Source: Thermus amyloliquefaciens
GTDB taxonomy: Bacteria > Deinococcota > Deinococci > Deinococcales > Thermaceae
Length of the DNA stretch: 64,000 nucleotides
Reading direction: 5' to 3'
NCBI RefSeq assembly: GCF_000744885.1
Contig: NZ_JQMV01000003.1
Span: forward strand, 1,302,001-1,366,000
Made by a program: the position numbers and the translations under genes. Numbering within the stretch: position 1 is the first letter of the stretch; each line of letters begins with the position of its first letter. The notes under the pieces were generated by a model. That model ran no database searches. It saw only the letters and a program-made list of their open reading frames with translations, and had not been told where the DNA came from. Of this stretch, positions 9,778 to 30,442 are shown piece by piece.

Positions 9778-10928
9778 CAGACTTGACCGTTATACCCCTT
9801 TTGGGGTAGACGGTTCTCCATGACCCTGCGCGAAGCCCTATCCCAGGTTCCCGACCCCCGGGCCCACAACCGCCGCTACCCCCTCTGGGGCCTGCTGGCC
9901 CTGGTTCTTTTGGCCTTCCTCTCCCGCGTGGACTCCCTGCGCGGCGTCTCCCGCTTTGCCCGCGCCAACCCCCACCTCCTCCCCCACCTGGGCCTGCGCA
10001 AGGCCCCGGGCCACACCGCCCTCACCCAACTCCTCCACCGCCTGGACCCCCAGGCCCTGGCGGAGGCCCTGGCCAAGGTCTTCCCGGGAAGGGAGCTGGA
10101 AGGGGAAAAGGTCCTGGTGGCCGACGGCAAGGTGCTGCGAGGGAGCGGTAAGGGGAAGAGCCCCCAGGTCCGCCTGGTGGAGGCCTGGGCCCTTTCCCTG
10201 GGGCGCACCCTGGCCCAGGCCAGGGCGGAGGGAAGGGAGGACAAGGCGCTTCTGGAGCTTTTGGAGCGCCTGGGGGCGGAGGGGCTTGTGGGGAAGGTGG
10301 TGGTGGGGGATGCGGGGTTTTTGTACCCCGAGGTGGCCCGCCGGGTGCGGGCAAAGGGGGGGAGTACCTCCTGGTGGTGAAGGGGAACCAGGAGGGGCTT
10401 TTGGGGTGGGTGCGGGAGGTGTTTGCGGGGATGGCGCGAGGAGCCCTGCCTGGGGAGACGCGGGCGGAGTGGGTGCGGGAGGCAGACGGGGAGGTGAGGC
10501 GGTACGAGGTGTGGGCTTCTCCGGTGTTGCCCCCGGAGGTGGCGGCCTTTCCTGGGGCCAGGCAGGCGGTGCGGCTGGTGCGGGAGGTGGTGGTGAAGGG
10601 GACGGGGGAGGTGAGGCGGAGGGAGGGGTACGCGCTCACGAGCCTGGGGCCGGAGGAGGCGGACGCCCGGGTGCTGGGGGAGATTTGGGTGGGGCGATGG
10701 GGGGTGGAGAATGGTTCCTTCTGGGTGCGGGATGTGCTTTTGCGGGAGGACGCCTTTCAGGTGCGGGGGCGAGGGGGTGAGGTGCTGGCGGTGTTGCGGG
10801 CGCACTTGGTCTCGTGGTTGAACTGGAAGGGGGTGCGCCGGAAGAAGGCGGCCTTGGAGGTTTTCTCCTTCAACCCCCTGGCTGCCCTGCGGTTCCTGGG
10901 GCTCTATGCAGAATAGCGGTCAAGTCTG
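9778..10928 (+). mobile_element. ISAs1-like insertion sequence, copy 1 (1151 bp)
   Basis: The element has perfect 12-bp terminal inverted repeats (CAGACTTGACCG) and a 9-bp target duplication CGTGCAGGC at 9769-9777 and 10929-10937. It is nearly identical to the inverted copy at 24244-25393. It inserted into a Gfo/Idh oxidoreductase gene. An internal palindrome (ACCCCTTTTGGGGT) lies just inside the left end. Confidence 0.93.
9820..10916 (+). pseudogene. ISAs1-family transposase in two frames, copy 1
   Basis: The first frame (9820-10380) carries the family N-terminus (PDPRAHNRRYPLWGLLALVL) and the first catalytic region VLVADGKVLRGS. The second frame carries LVVKGNQ, the WVGRWGVENGSFW Glu region and the C-terminal helices. 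The frames meet in a run of seven G (10356-10362): a -1 slip, or an eighth G, yields a continuous GGEYLLVVKGNQ. The same G7 is present in copy 2, which suggests either programmed -1 frameshifting or a shared systematic base-calling error. Confidence 0.85.
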
Positions 10929-24243: not shown

Positions 24244-25393
24244 CAGACTTGACCGCTATTCTGCATAGAGCCCCAGGAACCGCAGGGCAGCCAGGGGGTT
24301 GAAGGAGAAAACCTCCAAGGCCGCCTTCTTCCGGCGCACCCCCTTCCAGTTCAACCACGAGACCAAGTGCGCCCGCAACACCGCCAGCACCTCACCCCCT
24401 CGCCCCCGCACCTGAAAGGCGTCCTCCCGCAAAAGCACATCCCGCACCCAGAAGGAACCATTCTCCACCCCCCATCGCCCCACCCAAATCTCCCCCAGCA
24501 CCCGGGCGTCCGCCTCCTCCGGCCCAAGGCTCGTGAGCGCGTACCCCTCCGTCCGCCTCACCTCCCCCGTCCCCTTCACCACCACCTCCCGCACCAGCCG
24601 CACCGCCTGCCTGGCCCCAGGAAAGGCCGCCACCTCCGGGGGCAACACCGGAGAAGCCCACACCTCGTACCGCCTCACCTCCCCGTCTGCCTCCCGCACC
24701 CACTCCGCCCGCGTCTCCCCAGGCAGGGCTCCTCGCGCCATCCCCGCAAACACCTCCCGCACCCACCCCAAAAGCCCCCCCTGGTTCCCCTTCAGCACCA
24801 GGAGGTACTCCCCCCCTTTGCCCGCACCCGGCGGGCCACCTCGGGGTACAAAAACCCCGCATCCCCCACCACCACCTTCCCCACAAGCCCCTCGGCCCCC
24901 AGGCGCTCCAAAAGCTCCAGAAGCGCCTTGTCCTCCCTTCCCTCCGCCCTGGCCTGGGCCAGGGTGCGCCCCAGGGAAAGGGCCCAGGCCTCCACCAGGC
25001 GGACCTGGGGGCTCTTCCCCTTACCGCTCCCTCGCAGCACCTTGCCGTCGGCCACCAGGACCTTTTCCCCTTCCAGCTCCCTTCCCGGGAAGACCTTGGC
25101 CAGGGCCTCCGCCAGGGCCTGGGGGTCCAGGCGGTGGAGGAGTTGGGTGAGGGCGGTGTGGCCCGGGGCCTTGCGCAGGCCCAGGTGGGGGAGGAGGTGG
25201 GGGTTGGCGCGGGCAAAGCGGGAGACGCCGCGCAGGGAGTCCACGCGGGAGAGGAAGGCCAAAAGAACCAGGGCCAGCAGGCCCCAGAGGGGGTAGCGGC
25301 GGTTGTGGGCCCGGGGGTCGGGAACCTGGGATAGGGCTTCGCGCAGGGTCATGGGAATCATTTACCCCAAAAGGGGTATAACGGTCAAGTCTG
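24244..25393 (-). mobile_element. ISAs1-like insertion sequence, copy 2 (1150 bp)
   Basis: It has the same 12-bp terminal repeats CAGACTTGACCG as copy 1, and a 10-bp target duplication GGGGGTGGGG (24234-24243 and 25394-25403). It lies in the opposite orientation to copy 1, 13.3 kb away, and differs from it by a few substitutions and one base in length near the left end. It sits inside the spoVR remnant. Confidence 0.93.
24256..25361 (-). pseudogene. ISAs1-family transposase in two frames, copy 2
   Basis: It has the same organisation as copy 1: the first frame runs from 25361 to 24792 and the second ends at 24256, meeting at the same seven-G run (24810-24816 on the plus strand as C7). The start here is ATG 25361, with a second ATG four codons in. 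Substitutions relative to copy 1 include Val to Leu and Glu to Gly in the LVVKGNQEG segment. Confidence 0.85.
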
Positions 25394-25520
25394 GGGGGTG
25401 GGGCTGGACCTGAGGAAAACCCAGGCGGTGCTGGAGAACCTGCACCGCCTCTGGGGCCGGCCCGTGCACCTTAAGACGGTGGTGGGGGAGAAGGAAACCC
25501 TGCTTTCCGCCGGGGGCTAG
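25394..25520 (+). pseudogene. SpoVR-like gene remnant, 3' end
   Basis: The sequence after the IS reads GVGLDLRKTQAVLENLHRLW and GRPVHLKTVVGEKETLLSAGG then TAG, the C-terminus of SpoVR. It is in frame with the upstream fragment when the IS and its duplication are removed. Its stop overlaps the 3' end of the TlpA-like gene by 4 bp on the opposite strand. Confidence 0.82.
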
Positions 25521-26308
25521 CGCAACACCCTGAGGTAGCCGAGGAGGAGCGCCTCGGACAACTCCCCCAGATGGCGGGCCACCAGGCGGCCTGAGCTGTC
25601 AAAGAAGAAGGTGGTGGGCAGCCCCTGGACCCCCAGGGCCTGGGAAACCCGGGTCTCCGGGTCCAGGAGCACCCACTCTGGGGCCAGCCCCTGCCCCTCC
25701 AAAAACGCCTTCACCACCGCAGGACCTTCCCCCTGGCTCACGAAGGCAAAGCGGACCCCCGGGTGCTCCTGGCTCAGCCGCACCATCATGGGAAGCTCCC
25801 GGCGGCAGGGAGGGCACCAGGTGGCCCAGGTGTTGAGCACCAAGGGCTTGCCCCGAAAGTCCTCAAGGTTCACGGGCGTCCCTCCCAGGGCGGAGAGCTC
25901 CAGCGCGGGCAGGCGCACCTCCTGCCCCCCACCGCCCCGGGTGAAGAGCACCCCCGCCGTCAGGCCGGCCAACAACGCCGCCACCAAGGCGTAGCGCCAA
26001 AGATGCTTGGGCACCACCATCAGCGTATACCCTCCTCCCGCCAAGATACCCCAGACGGGGTCAAACCCCCCCTGCCAGACGTAGAGCACCGAGAGGGGAT
26101 CCTTCGCGAAGACAGGAAGGTTTTCCAGAACAAACCCCAAGCGCGCCCCCACCAGGCCCAGGAAAACCGCGTTATAGGCCCAGGGGGAAAACCTGCGGTC
26201 CACCTTGCGGGCCAGCACCTCCCCTGTAATCACCAGGACCAAAAGGGCCAAGGCCACCTGGACCCTTGTCCAGGGAATGGCCAAAGGCCCAAGCTGCACC
26301 GCGTCCAT
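25517..26308 (-). CDS. Lgt-like membrane domain fused to TlpA-type thioredoxin
   Basis: This 263-residue protein has about 120 N-terminal residues that form several membrane segments and resemble prolipoprotein diacylglyceryl transferase (GARLGFVLENL, VWQGGFDPVWGILAGG). The catalytic His of the Lgt HGG motif is missing, so this part is probably only an anchor. A periplasmic thioredoxin domain of the TlpA type follows with WCPPC at 164-168 and a cis-proline loop GLPTTFFF. It likely reduces or oxidises exported protein disulfides. It overlaps the rhodanese gene by 1 bp and ends the operon started by the disulfide oxidoreductase. Confidence 0.85.
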   Translation of the reverse strand: MDAVQLGPLAIPWTRVQVALALLVLVITGEVLARKVDRRFSPWAYNAVFLGLVGARLGFVLENLPVFAKDPLSVLYVWQGGFDPVWGILAGGGYTLMVVPKHLWRYALVAALLAGLTAGVLFTRGGGGQEVRLPALELSALGGTPVNLEDFRGKPLVLNTWATWCPPCRRELPMMVRLSQEHPGVRFAFVSQGEGPAVVKAFLEGQGLAPEWVLLDPETRVSQALGVQGLPTTFFFDSSGRLVARHLGELSEALLLGYLRVLR

Positions 26309-26682
26309 CAGCGGACCAGCGGATACCCCGCCCGCTCTATGGCCAGCACCCCACCCTCCAGGTTGTAGAGGTTGGTGTAGCCCTTTTTCTTCAGGTACTC
26401 TGCCGCCTGGCGGCTGCGGTTGCCGCTACGGCAGTAGAGGTACACCGGCTTGTCCTTGGGAAGGGAGTCCCCCCACTGGGCGATGGCCTCCACGGGGAGG
26501 TTGAGGGCCCCGGGCACGTGCCCCGAGGCAAACTCCTGGGGGGTGCGCACGTCCACCACCACCGCCCCGGCCTCGAGGGCCCGGTAAAGCTCCTCCGGGC
26601 CCACGTTCTGGTAGCTCCCCTTGGGCCCGCAGGCGGCGAGAAGGGCCAAGGGCAAAAGGGCGAGGAGGGCGCGCCGGGTCAT
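26308..26682 (-). CDS. Lipoprotein rhodanese
   Basis: This 124-residue single-domain sulfurtransferase has a lipoprotein signal (LLALLPLALLAAC, Cys 18) that anchors it outside the membrane. The rhodanese domain contains VVDVRTPQEFASGHVPGALN and the active-site loop YCRSGNRS with the persulfide-forming Cys. It lies between the PDO and TlpA-like genes with 2 bp and 1 bp spacing, which suggests a joint role in extracytoplasmic sulfur or disulfide chemistry. Confidence 0.9.
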   Translation of the reverse strand: MTRRALLALLPLALLAACGPKGSYQNVGPEELYRALEAGAVVVDVRTPQEFASGHVPGALNLPVEAIAQWGDSLPKDKPVYLYCRSGNRSRQAAEYLKKKGYTNLYNLEGGVLAIERAGYPLVR

Positions 26683-26684
26683 GG

Positions 26685-27374
26685 CTAGGCCTTCACCCCC
26701 ACGGCCTTGCGGATGGCCTGCAGGAACTGGGAGAGGGGCTGGGCTCCCAGGATCCTCTCCTTGCCGTGGTTCACGATGGTGTCCGGCACCCCGTGGATAT
26801 GGTAGCGGCTAGAGAGCTCCGGGAACTCGTTGGCCTCGATCATCTCACCCCAGACCTTGGGGGAGGCGTAGGCCATGCGGTGGGCGGTGCGCACCGCCTG
26901 CGGGCAGTAGGGGCAGGTGGGGGTCACGAAGACCTGGAGCACCACCTCCTCAGGGAGGTTGTTCAGCTCCTGGACCACGTTTTCCGGGAGTCCGTGCCCG
27001 TCCCGGCCCAGCATCTCGAGGTCCTCCAAGAGGCTGGCAAACTCATACCCCGCCGGGATACCCCGGTAGCGCAGGTTGATGGCGGAAGAACCCTTCTCCC
27101 GGAGGATCAGGGTGGGGGCCGCCTCCACCTGGTACTCCTTGGCCTTCTCCTGCCCCTCAGGGGTGGCGAGATCGTAGACCACCAGGTGAAGCTTGTCGGA
27201 AAGGGCAGCCAGCTCCTCCAGAAGCTGCTTGGTCTCCTTGCAGTACAGGCAGGGCTCCTTACCCGGGGCGATGAGGGTGGAGGTGTCGGTGAAAAGCACA
27301 AGCTCCACATCCCGCGCCAGGTTGGAAAGCCGCTCGCGTACGATCTCCTGCTCCTTCGGTCCCAGTAACGCCAT
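26685..27374 (-). CDS. Protein disulfide oxidoreductase (glutaredoxin-like, two thioredoxin folds)
   Basis: This 229-residue PDO has two thioredoxin units with active sites CLYC (42-45) and CPYC (154-157), the arrangement known from Pyrococcus, Aquifex and Thermus PDO, where it supports cytoplasmic disulfide bonds in thermophiles. ATG 27374 with AGGAGGAAACC in front is chosen over the upstream in-frame GTG-type start. It heads the leftward arm of the sulfur locus, and its leader contains a CsoR/CstR-like palindrome. Confidence 0.9.
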   Translation of the reverse strand: MALLGPKEQEIVRERLSNLARDVELVLFTDTSTLIAPGKEPCLYCKETKQLLEELAALSDKLHLVVYDLATPEGQEKAKEYQVEAAPTLILREKGSSAINLRYRGIPAGYEFASLLEDLEMLGRDGHGLPENVVQELNNLPEEVVLQVFVTPTCPYCPQAVRTAHRMAYASPKVWGEMIEANEFPELSSRYHIHGVPDTIVNHGKERILGAQPLSQFLQAIRKAVGVKA

Positions 27375-27387
27375 GGTTTCCTCCTGG

Positions 27388-27405
27388 ATACCCCCGTAGG
27401 GGTAC
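27388..27405. promoter_or_regulatory. CsoR/CstR-like operator in the PDO leader
   Basis: ATACCCCCGTAGGGGTAC is a near-perfect palindrome matching the TACCC-N-GGGTA layout of CsoR-family operators. It lies just upstream of the PDO ribosome site and just downstream of a likely minus-strand -10 (TATATT near 27422-27417). Confidence 0.6.
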
Positions 27406-27468
27406 ATCCTTTATTGAATATAGCAGACGTTTGCCCTGAAGAATAGACCCGCGAACACGCCTTCCCCA

Positions 27469-27498
27469 TTGACACCACTTACCCCCATAGGGTATCTT
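27469..27498 (+). promoter_or_regulatory. Promoter of the persulfide dioxygenase operon with embedded operator
   Basis: TTGACA (27469-27474) is a perfect -35 and TATCTT (27493-27498) a -10 at 18-bp spacing. The CsoR/CstR-like palindrome TTACCCCCATAGGGTATC (27479-27496) fills the spacer, so a bound repressor would exclude RNA polymerase. Confidence 0.68.
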
Positions 27499-27538
27499 GG
27501 CGGCGTGGGGACAATCGTCCCATACCGGAGGTGAAAGC

Positions 27539-28975
27539 ATGGTTTTCAGGCAAATTTACGAGGAAGGCTTGGCCCAAATGAGCTACCTCCTGGGGTGCGC
27601 CGCCACCGGGGAAGCCCTGGTGGTGGACCCAAAGCGGGACGTGGACACCTACCTGGAGCTGGCCGAGAGCCTGGGCCTGCGCATCACCGCCATCGCGGAA
27701 ACCCACATCCACGCCGACTACCTCTCGGGGGCCCGGGAGCTCGCCCGGGCCACCGGGGCCACCCTCTACCTCTCCGACGAGGGGGACGAGAACTGGAAGT
27801 ACCAGGGCCTGGAAGGGTTCGCCCATGTCCTCCTTAAGGACGGGGACGAGTTTAGGGTGGGGAACATCCGCATCCGGGCGGTGCACACCCCCGGCCACAC
27901 CCCCGAGCACCTCTCCTTCCTGGTGGCCGATGGGGCCGTCACCGACGAACCCCTCCTCTTCCTCACGGGCGACTTCGTCTTCGTGGGGGACATCGGGCGC
28001 CCTGACCTGCTGGAGGAGGCCGCGGGCATCAAGGGTACCGCGGTGCCCGGGGCCCGGCGCATGTTCCAAAGCCTCAAGGAGAAGTTCCTCACCCTCCCCG
28101 ACCACGTCCAGGTCTGGCCCGGCCACGGGGCGGGTTCCGCCTGCGGTAAGGCCTTGGGGGCCCTTCCCGCCACCACCGTGGGCTACGAGCGCCGGCACGC
28201 CTGGTGGGCGGAGTATTTGGAAAAGGACGACGAGGAGGGGTTTGTCAAGGCCCTTCTTTCCGGCCAACCGGAGGCCCCCACCTACTTCAAGGAGATGAAG
28301 CGGCTGAACCGGGACGGGATGCCCATCCTGGGTGGCATCCCCCACCCGGGCCGGCTCACCAAGGCCCAGTTTGACCGGTACCTGCGGGAGGGGGCCATCC
28401 TGGTGGACACCCGGGACAAGTTCGCCTTCGCCGGCGGGCACATCCGCGGGGCCATCAACATCCCCGCAGGCAAGAACTTCGCCACCTGGGCCGGGTGGCT
28501 TCTCCCTTACGACCGCCCCCTCATCCTCCTGGCCCACCCCTCGGAGGTGGAGGGCCTGACCCGGGCCCTGATCCGCATCGGCCTGGACGAGGTGGTGGGG
28601 TACATCCCAGGCCTCGAGGGGTATGCCGACGGGGAGCTGGAGACCGTGCCCCAGATCACCGCCCGGGAGGCCAAGGCCCTTTGGGAGCGGGGCGAGGCCC
28701 TGGTCCTGGACGTGCGGGGCCGGGACGAGTACCTGGCGGGGCACATCCCGGGGGCCCTGAACCTCCATGCGGGGCGGGTCTTGGCCCACCTGGACCGGCT
28801 CCCCAAGGACAAGCCCCTCATCGTCCACTGCGTGGGCGGGGACCGCTCCAGCACCGCCATCAGCGCCCTTCTCTCCCACGGCATCCGGAACGCCCTCAAC
28901 CTCACCGGGGGGATCAGGGCCTGGCAGGAGGCGGGCTTCCCGGTGGTGAAGGGGGAGGAGCTGGTAGGCGCCTAA
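27539..28975 (+). CDS. Persulfide dioxygenase-rhodanese fusion (CstB-like)
   Basis: This 478-residue protein has an ETHE1-like metallo-beta-lactamase domain (about 1-245; THIHADY at 55-61, HTPGH at 116-120, TGDFVF and the Asp of VGDIGRPDL), then a rhodanese domain with no active cysteine (Ala 332 region, LLAHPSEVE) and a second, active rhodanese (Cys 431 in VHCVGGDRS). CstB in Staphylococcus has the same order and converts low-molecular-weight persulfides to thiosulfate. ATG 27539 has GGAGGTGAAAGC in front. It is followed by a tandem rhodanese and a TauE exporter, the same set as cst operons. Confidence 0.87.
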   Translation: MVFRQIYEEGLAQMSYLLGCAATGEALVVDPKRDVDTYLELAESLGLRITAIAETHIHADYLSGARELARATGATLYLSDEGDENWKYQGLEGFAHVLLKDGDEFRVGNIRIRAVHTPGHTPEHLSFLVADGAVTDEPLLFLTGDFVFVGDIGRPDLLEEAAGIKGTAVPGARRMFQSLKEKFLTLPDHVQVWPGHGAGSACGKALGALPATTVGYERRHAWWAEYLEKDDEEGFVKALLSGQPEAPTYFKEMKRLNRDGMPILGGIPHPGRLTKAQFDRYLREGAILVDTRDKFAFAGGHIRGAINIPAGKNFATWAGWLLPYDRPLILLAHPSEVEGLTRALIRIGLDEVVGYIPGLEGYADGELETVPQITAREAKALWERGEALVLDVRGRDEYLAGHIPGALNLHAGRVLAHLDRLPKDKPLIVHCVGGDRSSTAISALLSHGIRNALNLTGGIRAWQEAGFPVVKGEELVGA

Positions 28976-29027: not shown

Positions 29028-29687
29028 ATGCACCAGGCCCAGGTCAAGGACCTAAGCCCAGAGGAAGCGAAGAGGCTACACGAGCAGGGGGTGCCCTTCA
29101 TCGACGTGCGGGAAGTGGAGGAGTACGCCCAGGCCCGGATTCCCGGGGCAAGCCTCCTGCCCCTTTCCGAGTTCATGGCCCGTTACGGGGAGATCCCCCA
29201 GGACCGGCCCGTGGTCCTTTACTGCCGCACGGGCAACCGCTCCTGGCAAGCGGCGGCCTGGCTCTCCGCCCAGGGGTACGGGAACGTCTATAACCTCGAG
29301 GGGGGCATCGTCCGCTGGTACCGCTCGGGCCTCCCCGTGGACACCACCCCGGTGGAGGTGGGTTACGCCGCCACCCCCTTCCAGGAGGTGGGCCCCCACG
29401 AGGCGAAGGGGCTTCTGCAGGAGGCCTTGGTGGTGGACGTGCGCGAGCCCTGGGAGTATGCGGAAGGGCACCTGCCCGGGGCGGTGAACATCCCCCTTTC
29501 CTCCTTGCCGCAGAGGCTCTCGGAACTTCCCAAGGACCGGCCCATCCTCCTGGTGTGCAACTCCGGCAACCGCTCGGGCGTGGCCGCGGACTTCCTGGTG
29601 GGGCAGGGCTTCCCCGGGGAGCGGGTCTACAACCTGGAGGGGGGCACCTACGCCTGGATGGGGGCGGGGCTTCCCGTGGAGCGATGA
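29028..29687 (+). CDS. Tandem rhodanese sulfurtransferase
   Basis: This 219-residue protein has two rhodanese domains that both keep an active-site loop: YCRTGNRSW in the first (about 1-110) and VCNSGNRSG in the second (about 115-219). It lacks a signal peptide and should act in the cytoplasm, passing sulfane sulfur between persulfide donors and acceptors. The stop overlaps the TauE gene (ATGA). Confidence 0.9.
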   Translation: MHQAQVKDLSPEEAKRLHEQGVPFIDVREVEEYAQARIPGASLLPLSEFMARYGEIPQDRPVVLYCRTGNRSWQAAAWLSAQGYGNVYNLEGGIVRWYRSGLPVDTTPVEVGYAATPFQEVGPHEAKGLLQEALVVDVREPWEYAEGHLPGAVNIPLSSLPQRLSELPKDRPILLVCNSGNRSGVAADFLVGQGFPGERVYNLEGGTYAWMGAGLPVER

Positions 29688-30442
29688 GCCTCGCCCTCCT
29701 CGGCGCCCTCCTCATCGGCCTTTCCCTGGGGCTTCTGGGATCCGGGGGGTCCATCCTCACCGTGCCCGTCCTGGTCTACCTCCTGGGCGAGGCCCCCAAG
29801 CAGGCCATCGCGGAAAGCCTCCTCATCGTGGGGGGCATCGCCCTCCTCGGGGCGCTTCCCTACGCCCTAAGGGGCCTGGTGGACGGGCGGAACGTGCTCC
29901 TCTTCGGCCTCCCGGGCATGGCGGGCACCTACCTGGGGGCTTGGCTCTCCCGCTTCGTGACGGGAGAGGTGCAGCTTTTGGCCTTCGCCTCGGTGATGCT
30001 CCTCGCCGCCTACTTCATGGCCCGGCCCGCCCCCCTCCGCCCCAAGGCCCACAAGCGCCAGGCTTGGAAGATCGTTCTGGATGGGGTCTTCGTGGGTGCC
30101 CTCACCGGCTTCGTGGGGGTGGGCGGGGGGTTTTTGATCGTGCCCGCCCTGGTCCTCCTGGGGGGGCTTCCCATGCACCTGGCCATCGGGACCAGCCTTT
30201 TCGTCATCGCCCTGAAGTCCTTCGCCGGCTTCTACAAGTACCTTCACCTCCTGCCGGCGTACGGGCTTTCGGTGAACTACGCCGTGGTGGGGCTTTTCGT
30301 CCTGGTGGGAACCCTGGGGAGCTTCTTGGGAGGGAGGCTTGCGGTGCGCCTGCCCCAGGAGGGGCTTAAGCGGGGCTTCGCCCTCTTCCTGGTGGTTATG
30401 GGGGTCTTCATCCTAGCCCAGAACCTGGCCTCGAGGCCCTAA
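29684..30442 (+). CDS. TauE/SafE family sulfite/sulfonate exporter
   Basis: This 252-residue inner-membrane protein has about eight membrane segments and the duplicated glycine-rich family motif (LLGSGGSILTVPVLVYLLG and VGVGGGFLIVPALVLLGG). In cst-type operons a TauE protein removes sulfite or thiosulfate made by persulfide oxidation, and that role fits here. The start overlaps the rhodanese stop. Confidence 0.9.
   Translation: MSLALLGALLIGLSLGLLGSGGSILTVPVLVYLLGEAPKQAIAESLLIVGGIALLGALPYALRGLVDGRNVLLFGLPGMAGTYLGAWLSRFVTGEVQLLAFASVMLLAAYFMARPAPLRPKAHKRQAWKIVLDGVFVGALTGFVGVGGGFLIVPALVLLGGLPMHLAIGTSLFVIALKSFAGFYKYLHLLPAYGLSVNYAVVGLFVLVGTLGSFLGGRLAVRLPQEGLKRGFALFLVVMGVFILAQNLASRP

Follow-up and report, generated by a model that had tools for sequence, protein, structure and literature searches.

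CstR-type repressors are known for small operons of sulfide detoxification. CstR of S. aureus was judged to control one operon directly (PMC5480029). In the YrkD cluster of B. licheniformis, a CstR-like repressor stands over genes for a rhodanese, a persulfide dioxygenase, TauE and a thioredoxin-like protein, and two regions of the cluster are bound (PMC9918477). The so-called type 2 operator of the CsoR family is defined as TAC-X9-GTA; in Streptomyces lividans it is accompanied by G/C tracts, as in ATACCCCCTAGGGGTA, and serves copper efflux targets that answer a copper signal (PMC3902906). Within the genus Thermus, TTHA1953 of T. thermophilus HB8 has been published as a CsoR-like repressor of sox genes. 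Its two cysteines are residues 39 and 68, and it binds DNA most strongly in the reduced state. It represses soxW and neighbouring genes in vivo, and its deletion, in a strain that already exists, raises TTHA1422 113-fold (PMC10318464).

The locus described here lies in a window of 64,000 nucleotides, by which we mean the whole stretch of Thermus amyloliquefaciens DNA that was analysed (G000:C3:1302001-1366000). It is a divergon, consisting of these parts:

27375-27538, intergenic centre, with the PDO arm leftward and the cstB arm rightward
26685-27374, minus strand, PDO, protein disulfide oxidoreductase (TIGR02187, 252.6 bits against a cut-off of 185)
26308-26682, minus strand, lipoprotein rhodanese (PF00581; lipoprotein-like N-terminus LLAAC)
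25517-26308, minus strand, TlpA/ResA-like membrane protein (Redoxin, AhpC-TSA; LGT-like N-terminal part)
27539-28975, plus strand, CstB-like persulfide dioxygenase-rhodanese (PF00753 and PF00581; 3tp9, 3r2u)
29028-29687, plus strand, tandem rhodanese (two PF00581 stretches)
29684-30442, plus strand, TauE/SafE exporter (PF01925)

The CstB-like protein matches two solved relatives, 3tp9 and 3r2u, over nearly its full length, and PDO is 91-96% identical to its counterparts in named Thermus relatives. An earlier reading of this DNA, made from the sequence only, had equated the rightward genes with the Staphylococcus cst set. The likeness holds for CstB and TauE, and a dithiol repressor of the CsoR family is present in both organisms; however, the tandem rhodanese does not correspond to the multidomain CstA, and the Thermus operon contains neither sqr nor a linked repressor gene (PMC5480029). 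As in the CstR regulon, cstB is accompanied by sulfurtransferase and TauE genes, and the genome encodes a two-cysteine repressor that lacks the copper-binding histidine (Cys, Phe, Cys). Unlike S. aureus cst, the locus adds a second arm with PDO, the lipoprotein rhodanese and the TlpA-like protein (PMC5480029). The set is thus wider than that of CstR, as had been claimed, but this is not special to the genome at hand: in sister genera, PDO, rhodanese and TlpA form one arm together with a CsoR gene. The YrkD cluster resembles the divergon in its kinds of genes and, with its two bound regions, in the number of sites, and differs in having a linked repressor, a single direction and a two-component system on top; neither a disulfide oxidoreductase nor a thioredoxin reductase is reported for it in the available text (PMC9918477).

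Two palindromes occupy the space between the arms, at exactly the positions first proposed for them:

27389-27404 (palindrome 27388-27405), no strand, site 1, TACCCCCGTAGGGGTA, TAC-X10-GTA, in the PDO leader
27480-27494 (palindrome 27479-27496), no strand, site 2, TACCCCCATAGGGTA, TAC-X9-GTA, in the cstB promoter
27469-27498, plus strand, cstB promoter, TTGACA (27469-27474), spacer of 18, TATCTT (27493-27498)
27417-27425, minus strand, proposed extended -10 of the PDO arm, TGCTATATT on the minus strand, assigned by eye

The cstB promoter has a perfect -35 box and is the sole promoter-like site that a promoter scan returned in 27000-28000. The scan bears out the placement of site 2 between the two boxes, which it also overlaps. 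Site 1 is found, as had been stated, in the PDO leader, directly upstream of the ribosome site that serves the start codon at 27374, so that it is flanked by this ribosome site and the proposed extended -10. The columns of the latter are mostly conserved in the Thermus alignment, and the scan of 27000-28000 did not return it. Both sites are thus placed to block a promoter, site 2 between the -35 and -10, which it overlaps, and site 1 downstream of the proposed -10. The published type 2 form is fitted exactly by site 2, and site 1 is one base longer (PMC3902906). Operators of this type have G/C tracts of four or more bases within the repeat; site 1 carries CCCCC and GGGG, site 2 carries CCCCC and, in the other arm, GGG. 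This recalls the S. lividans operators, which differ in their copper targets and signal; the S. aureus copA site is ATACCtataGGGGGTAC (PMC5947656). Three lines support assigning the palindromes to the CsoR/CstR type: the operator as defined in print (PMC3902906), the conservation of the sites, and the two-cysteine CsoR genes that are linked to cst in related bacteria.

The cstB leader contains a further inverted repeat, GGGAC-N4-GTCCC, at 27508-27521 of the window. It is kept in 19/19 aligned sequences except for three changes at one pair (two G-U, one mismatch), none of them compensatory. It may be a leader hairpin or a site for another protein.

Judged by single-sequence statistics, the pair of sites is only modestly unusual. 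At two or fewer mismatches, TACCCCNNTAGGGTA has 5 matches in the window against 1.5 expected, a number reached in 3 of 100 shuffles. Relaxed patterns with at most one mismatch are hardly enriched genome-wide (94 against 78 in the control, and 82 against 78). Exact TACCC-N5-GGGTA occurs three times in the genome and exact TACCC-N6-GGGTA ten times, seven of these ten in a form that belongs to an insertion sequence. Because both the window test and the relaxed genome counts are weak, we used comparison between genomes as evidence. We searched the 250 bp upstream of cstB and accepted any match to TACCC-N5/6-GGGTA that deviated at no more than one of its 10 fixed positions. There were 48 such regions from 46 genomes, two of which have two cstB copies and two a broken cstB. 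The site is present in 45 of the 48 regions and absent from three. Control windows 500-750 bp upstream of cstB contain it in 3/48 cases, two of them matching a palindrome that lies close to a csoR gene of the same operon; random 250-bp windows contain it in 170 of 5000. Among Thermus regions, the exact X9 site is found in 26/26 and the exact X10 site in 25/26. Compared with the window, 25 distinct Thermus sequences are 96.8% identical in site 1, 90.4% in site 2 and 98.7% in the -35 box, against 54.9% between the sites. The middle of site 1 varies (CGTA, GGTA, TATC, CCTA) and both its arms are constant. Across relatives, the case that the sites are more than chance is therefore strong, whereas in the window alone it is modest.

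The sequence-only reading had noted that no csoR or cstR gene lies in the window. A genome-wide search agrees with this and finds exactly two genes of the family (PF02583), both elsewhere. One (L002) forms a copZ-csoR pair, has the residues C-H-H and matches TTHA1719. The other (L001, G000:C3:68870-69148) is the ortholog of TTHA1953, with Cys39, Cys68 and a Phe at the His position (PMC10318464). It is located 1.26 Mb from the divergon and is preceded by a dnaX-like frame, named by eye. In Thermus, the Cys-Cys pattern without copper His occurs only in the TTHA1953 ortholog. In a tree of 52 CsoR proteins, many of whose forks are unresolved, the TTHA1953 type forms clade A (support 96/87) and the cst-linked type clade B (89/85). 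A clade B gene closes the PDO arm in G030 and G033 and follows PDO in G031; it lies upstream of cstB in G029, in the second G031 copy and in G027 (2.4 kb off), and is divergent from cstB in G041. Thermus, G028 and G039 possess the divergon and its sites and have no clade B match, which leaves the clade A protein as their sole two-cysteine protein without His; G039 additionally encodes a C-H-C protein. A repressor gene near the operon is thus found only in sister genera and not in Thermus, and we do not class the locus as a CstR operon proper. The genome does encode proteins of the CsoR family, as the earlier reading requires, and the likely repressor is the TTHA1953 ortholog, not a cst-linked CstR.

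Autoregulation of the TTHA1953 ortholog was considered and rejected: a half-site, TACCCCCTAT (minus strand), is kept upstream of it, with no full palindrome. Among upstream regions of TTHA1953 orthologs, 2/30 have a site within one mismatch, at other places. Four genomes (G034, G035, G036, G029; L161, L162, L164, L167) encode a TTHA1953-like CsoR paralog about 11 kb past soxY. Both of its cysteines are replaced (Phe, Trp), which makes the usual mode of thiol sensing impossible.

The published data on TTHA1953 are partly against this assignment. Its selected consensus, TACNNTACNNNNGTANNGTA, differs from the divergon sites and has no G/C tracts, a TTHA0653/4 site with a four-C tract was left unprotected, and changes of spacing made binding weaker by a factor of 10-15. 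Treatment with NaHS failed to release TTHA1953 from DNA, and cst, PDO and trxB are absent from the targets given in the available text (PMC10318464). The consensus may be viewed as a pair of TAC-N9-GTA repeats shifted by five bases against each other. Site 2 has four mismatches of 12 to it and site 1 five; in G004 and G028, the cst site 2 is the sole genome position within one mismatch. In the window's own genome, TACNNTACNNNNGTANNGTA has 3 matches against 6 in the control at two or fewer mismatches, and 83 against 100 at three or fewer, and since it is not enriched it cannot define a regulon here. The soxW leader has a TAC-X9-GTA core that resembles site 2 and is kept in 21 of 22 Thermus/G028 loci; it is probably the site that TTHA1953 binds.

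When exact matches outside open reading frames and insertion sequences are considered, the genome contains the two cst sites and one more, upstream of trxB (C3:1981592). Exact palindromes at C3:1038908, 1444186 and 1822896 were not retained as targets, because they fall within open reading frames. The trxB product is a thioredoxin reductase above the family cut-off (TIGR01292). We looked for a site within one mismatch upstream of trxB in the 56 of 61 genomes that were testable, G025, G027, G049, G056 and G058 being omitted as they have no whole ortholog. The site is present in 23/26 Thermus genomes, in 20/25 other genomes with a clade A or B repressor and in 0/5 without either, these five being four from one family and one from another. 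Broken down by repressor, it is found in 29 of 33 genomes with A only, 7 of 7 with both, 7 of 11 with B only and none of 5 with neither; clades of genomes absent from the tree were assigned by percent identity, and G059 is grouped with B, even though its protein falls outside both clades in the tree. The site is missing from four A-only and four B-only genomes; in three of the former (G003, G018, G022) the corresponding position holds a form with more mismatches. The association with repressor presence has a Fisher p of 0.0018, a value that overstates independence owing to kinship. Shuffled regions reach such a match in 0 to 8% of cases and control windows in 1/29.

A second possible addition, some 9 kb away from trxB, is a glutaredoxin-like gene present in 22 of the 25 genomes examined. 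TAC-X9-GTA abuts its ATG at a fixed place in 21 of 22 loci (L334:1114-1382 and 21 others). It stays a candidate, since it could equally be a -10 box with a leaderless start. The genus-wide site search behind it covered 27 genomes; among the matches listed, 20 chosen stretches were examined.

The seven copies of TACCCCAAAAGGGGTA were dropped as targets, this form being carried by an insertion sequence, as seen in the two copies examined. The element belongs to the ISAs1 family, its transposase frame is split in two, and TACCCCAAAAGGGGTA sits between the start of the gene and the end of the element. The palindrome occurs at seven places in G000:C3, including 25363-25378 and 9793-9808 of the window.

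Could a repressor from outside the CsoR family bind the palindromes in Thermus? Neither known Thermus CsoR consensus fits the sites fully (PMC10318464), and the cst-linked clade B gene is absent from the genus. We still regard such a protein as unlikely, for the sites retain the CsoR operator form, the same form recurs in genera with a linked CsoR gene, and the trxB sites track the presence of clades A and B, albeit with neither-clade genomes that are few and related. Somewhat more doubtful is binding by the copper CsoR, the TTHA1719 ortholog beside copZ, which would make the locus answer copper. It is the genome's one CsoR-family member besides the TTHA1953 ortholog, and TAC-X9-GTA sites do serve copper CsoRs in other bacteria (PMC3902906). 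However, the published TTHA1719 site, CCCCACCCCACCTGGGGTGGGG, differs from sites 1 and 2, which makes a copper signal less likely, and TTHA1719 failed to bind the TTHA1953 consensus (PMC10318464). Further, the copZ leader in this genome has a long C-run/G-run site that, compared by eye, is like CCCCACCCCACCTGGGGTGGGG and unlike the cst sites, and there is no copper gene among those of the divergon. It is very improbable that the palindromes simply arise from promoter and leader sequence and bind no repressor: parts of them do overlap promoter elements, and the relaxed and window-only statistics are weak as given above, but the half-sites are near-invariant beside freely varying flanks, the arms of site 1 are fixed around a variable middle, and control windows are nearly free of such sites.

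We therefore favour, with fair though not full confidence, the reading of sites 1 and 2 as operators of a two-cysteine, CstR-like repressor of the CsoR family, which in Thermus would be the TTHA1953 ortholog. What argues for it are the clade B genes that sister genera carry within or next to this divergon and the trxB sites that follow clades A and B. The sites, how well they are kept and where they lie, the genes present, the pattern of cysteines and the sites at trxB are observed; from these we infer binder, repression and signal as follows. Reduced repressor would bind as paired tetramers. On site 2 it would cover the space between the cstB -35 and -10, and on site 1 the start of the PDO transcript, so that both arms are off; trxB would be blocked as well. 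Upon oxidation or persulfidation of Cys39/Cys68 the repressor would be released. Oxidation and export of sulfane sulfur might then fall to CstB, the rhodaneses and TauE, and disulfide handling to PDO and the TlpA-like protein; the trxB operator would let thioredoxin reductase be induced jointly with PDO, its likely partner. A single disulfide reductase chain made up of NADPH, thioredoxin reductase and PDO is known from archaea (PMC7465337). PDO and trxB under shared operators would thus be one response unit, and a single repressor may control the whole system of cst, PDO and trxB.

If the same operators drive PDO and trxB, persulfide handling and protein-disulfide chemistry come under one switch, which would matter for the question of how thermophiles reconcile sulfur oxidation with a large number of disulfides in the cytoplasm. 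More tentatively, the two-cysteine CsoR could be a general thiol-disulfide switch of the Thermales, one unlinked repressor acting on cst, sox, thioredoxin reductase, PDO and perhaps glutaredoxin and doing work like that of OxyR, Spx or SigR; Thermus would then have retained the operators but passed control of its divergon from a linked CstR to this unlinked relative. Neither the operator type nor the repressor family is new. What looks new is the unlinked control of a divergon, the X10 site and the extension to trxB and PDO; literature searches on CstR/CsoR, Thermus and Meiothermus listed no paper that, by its title or the opening of its abstract, describes PDO or trxB of Thermales as under CstR-type control.

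Several minor observations concern sox. One copy of the insertion sequence with TACCCCAAAAGGGGTA lies upstream of soxW (L126, G000:C3 near 1707655), where other Thermus have a divergent cytochrome gene region; control of sox may be altered in this strain by the insertion. Two Thermus drafts, G015 (L157) and G011 (L158), have no soxY match and carry deletions through cstB and its neighbours, with PDO, rhodanese and tlpA retained, so loss of sox and loss of the cst arm may go together. Finally, in four sister-genus genomes (L147, L149, L150, L151) the cstB operon lies about 7 kb or less from soxY, a proximity that suggests one joint sulfur cluster.
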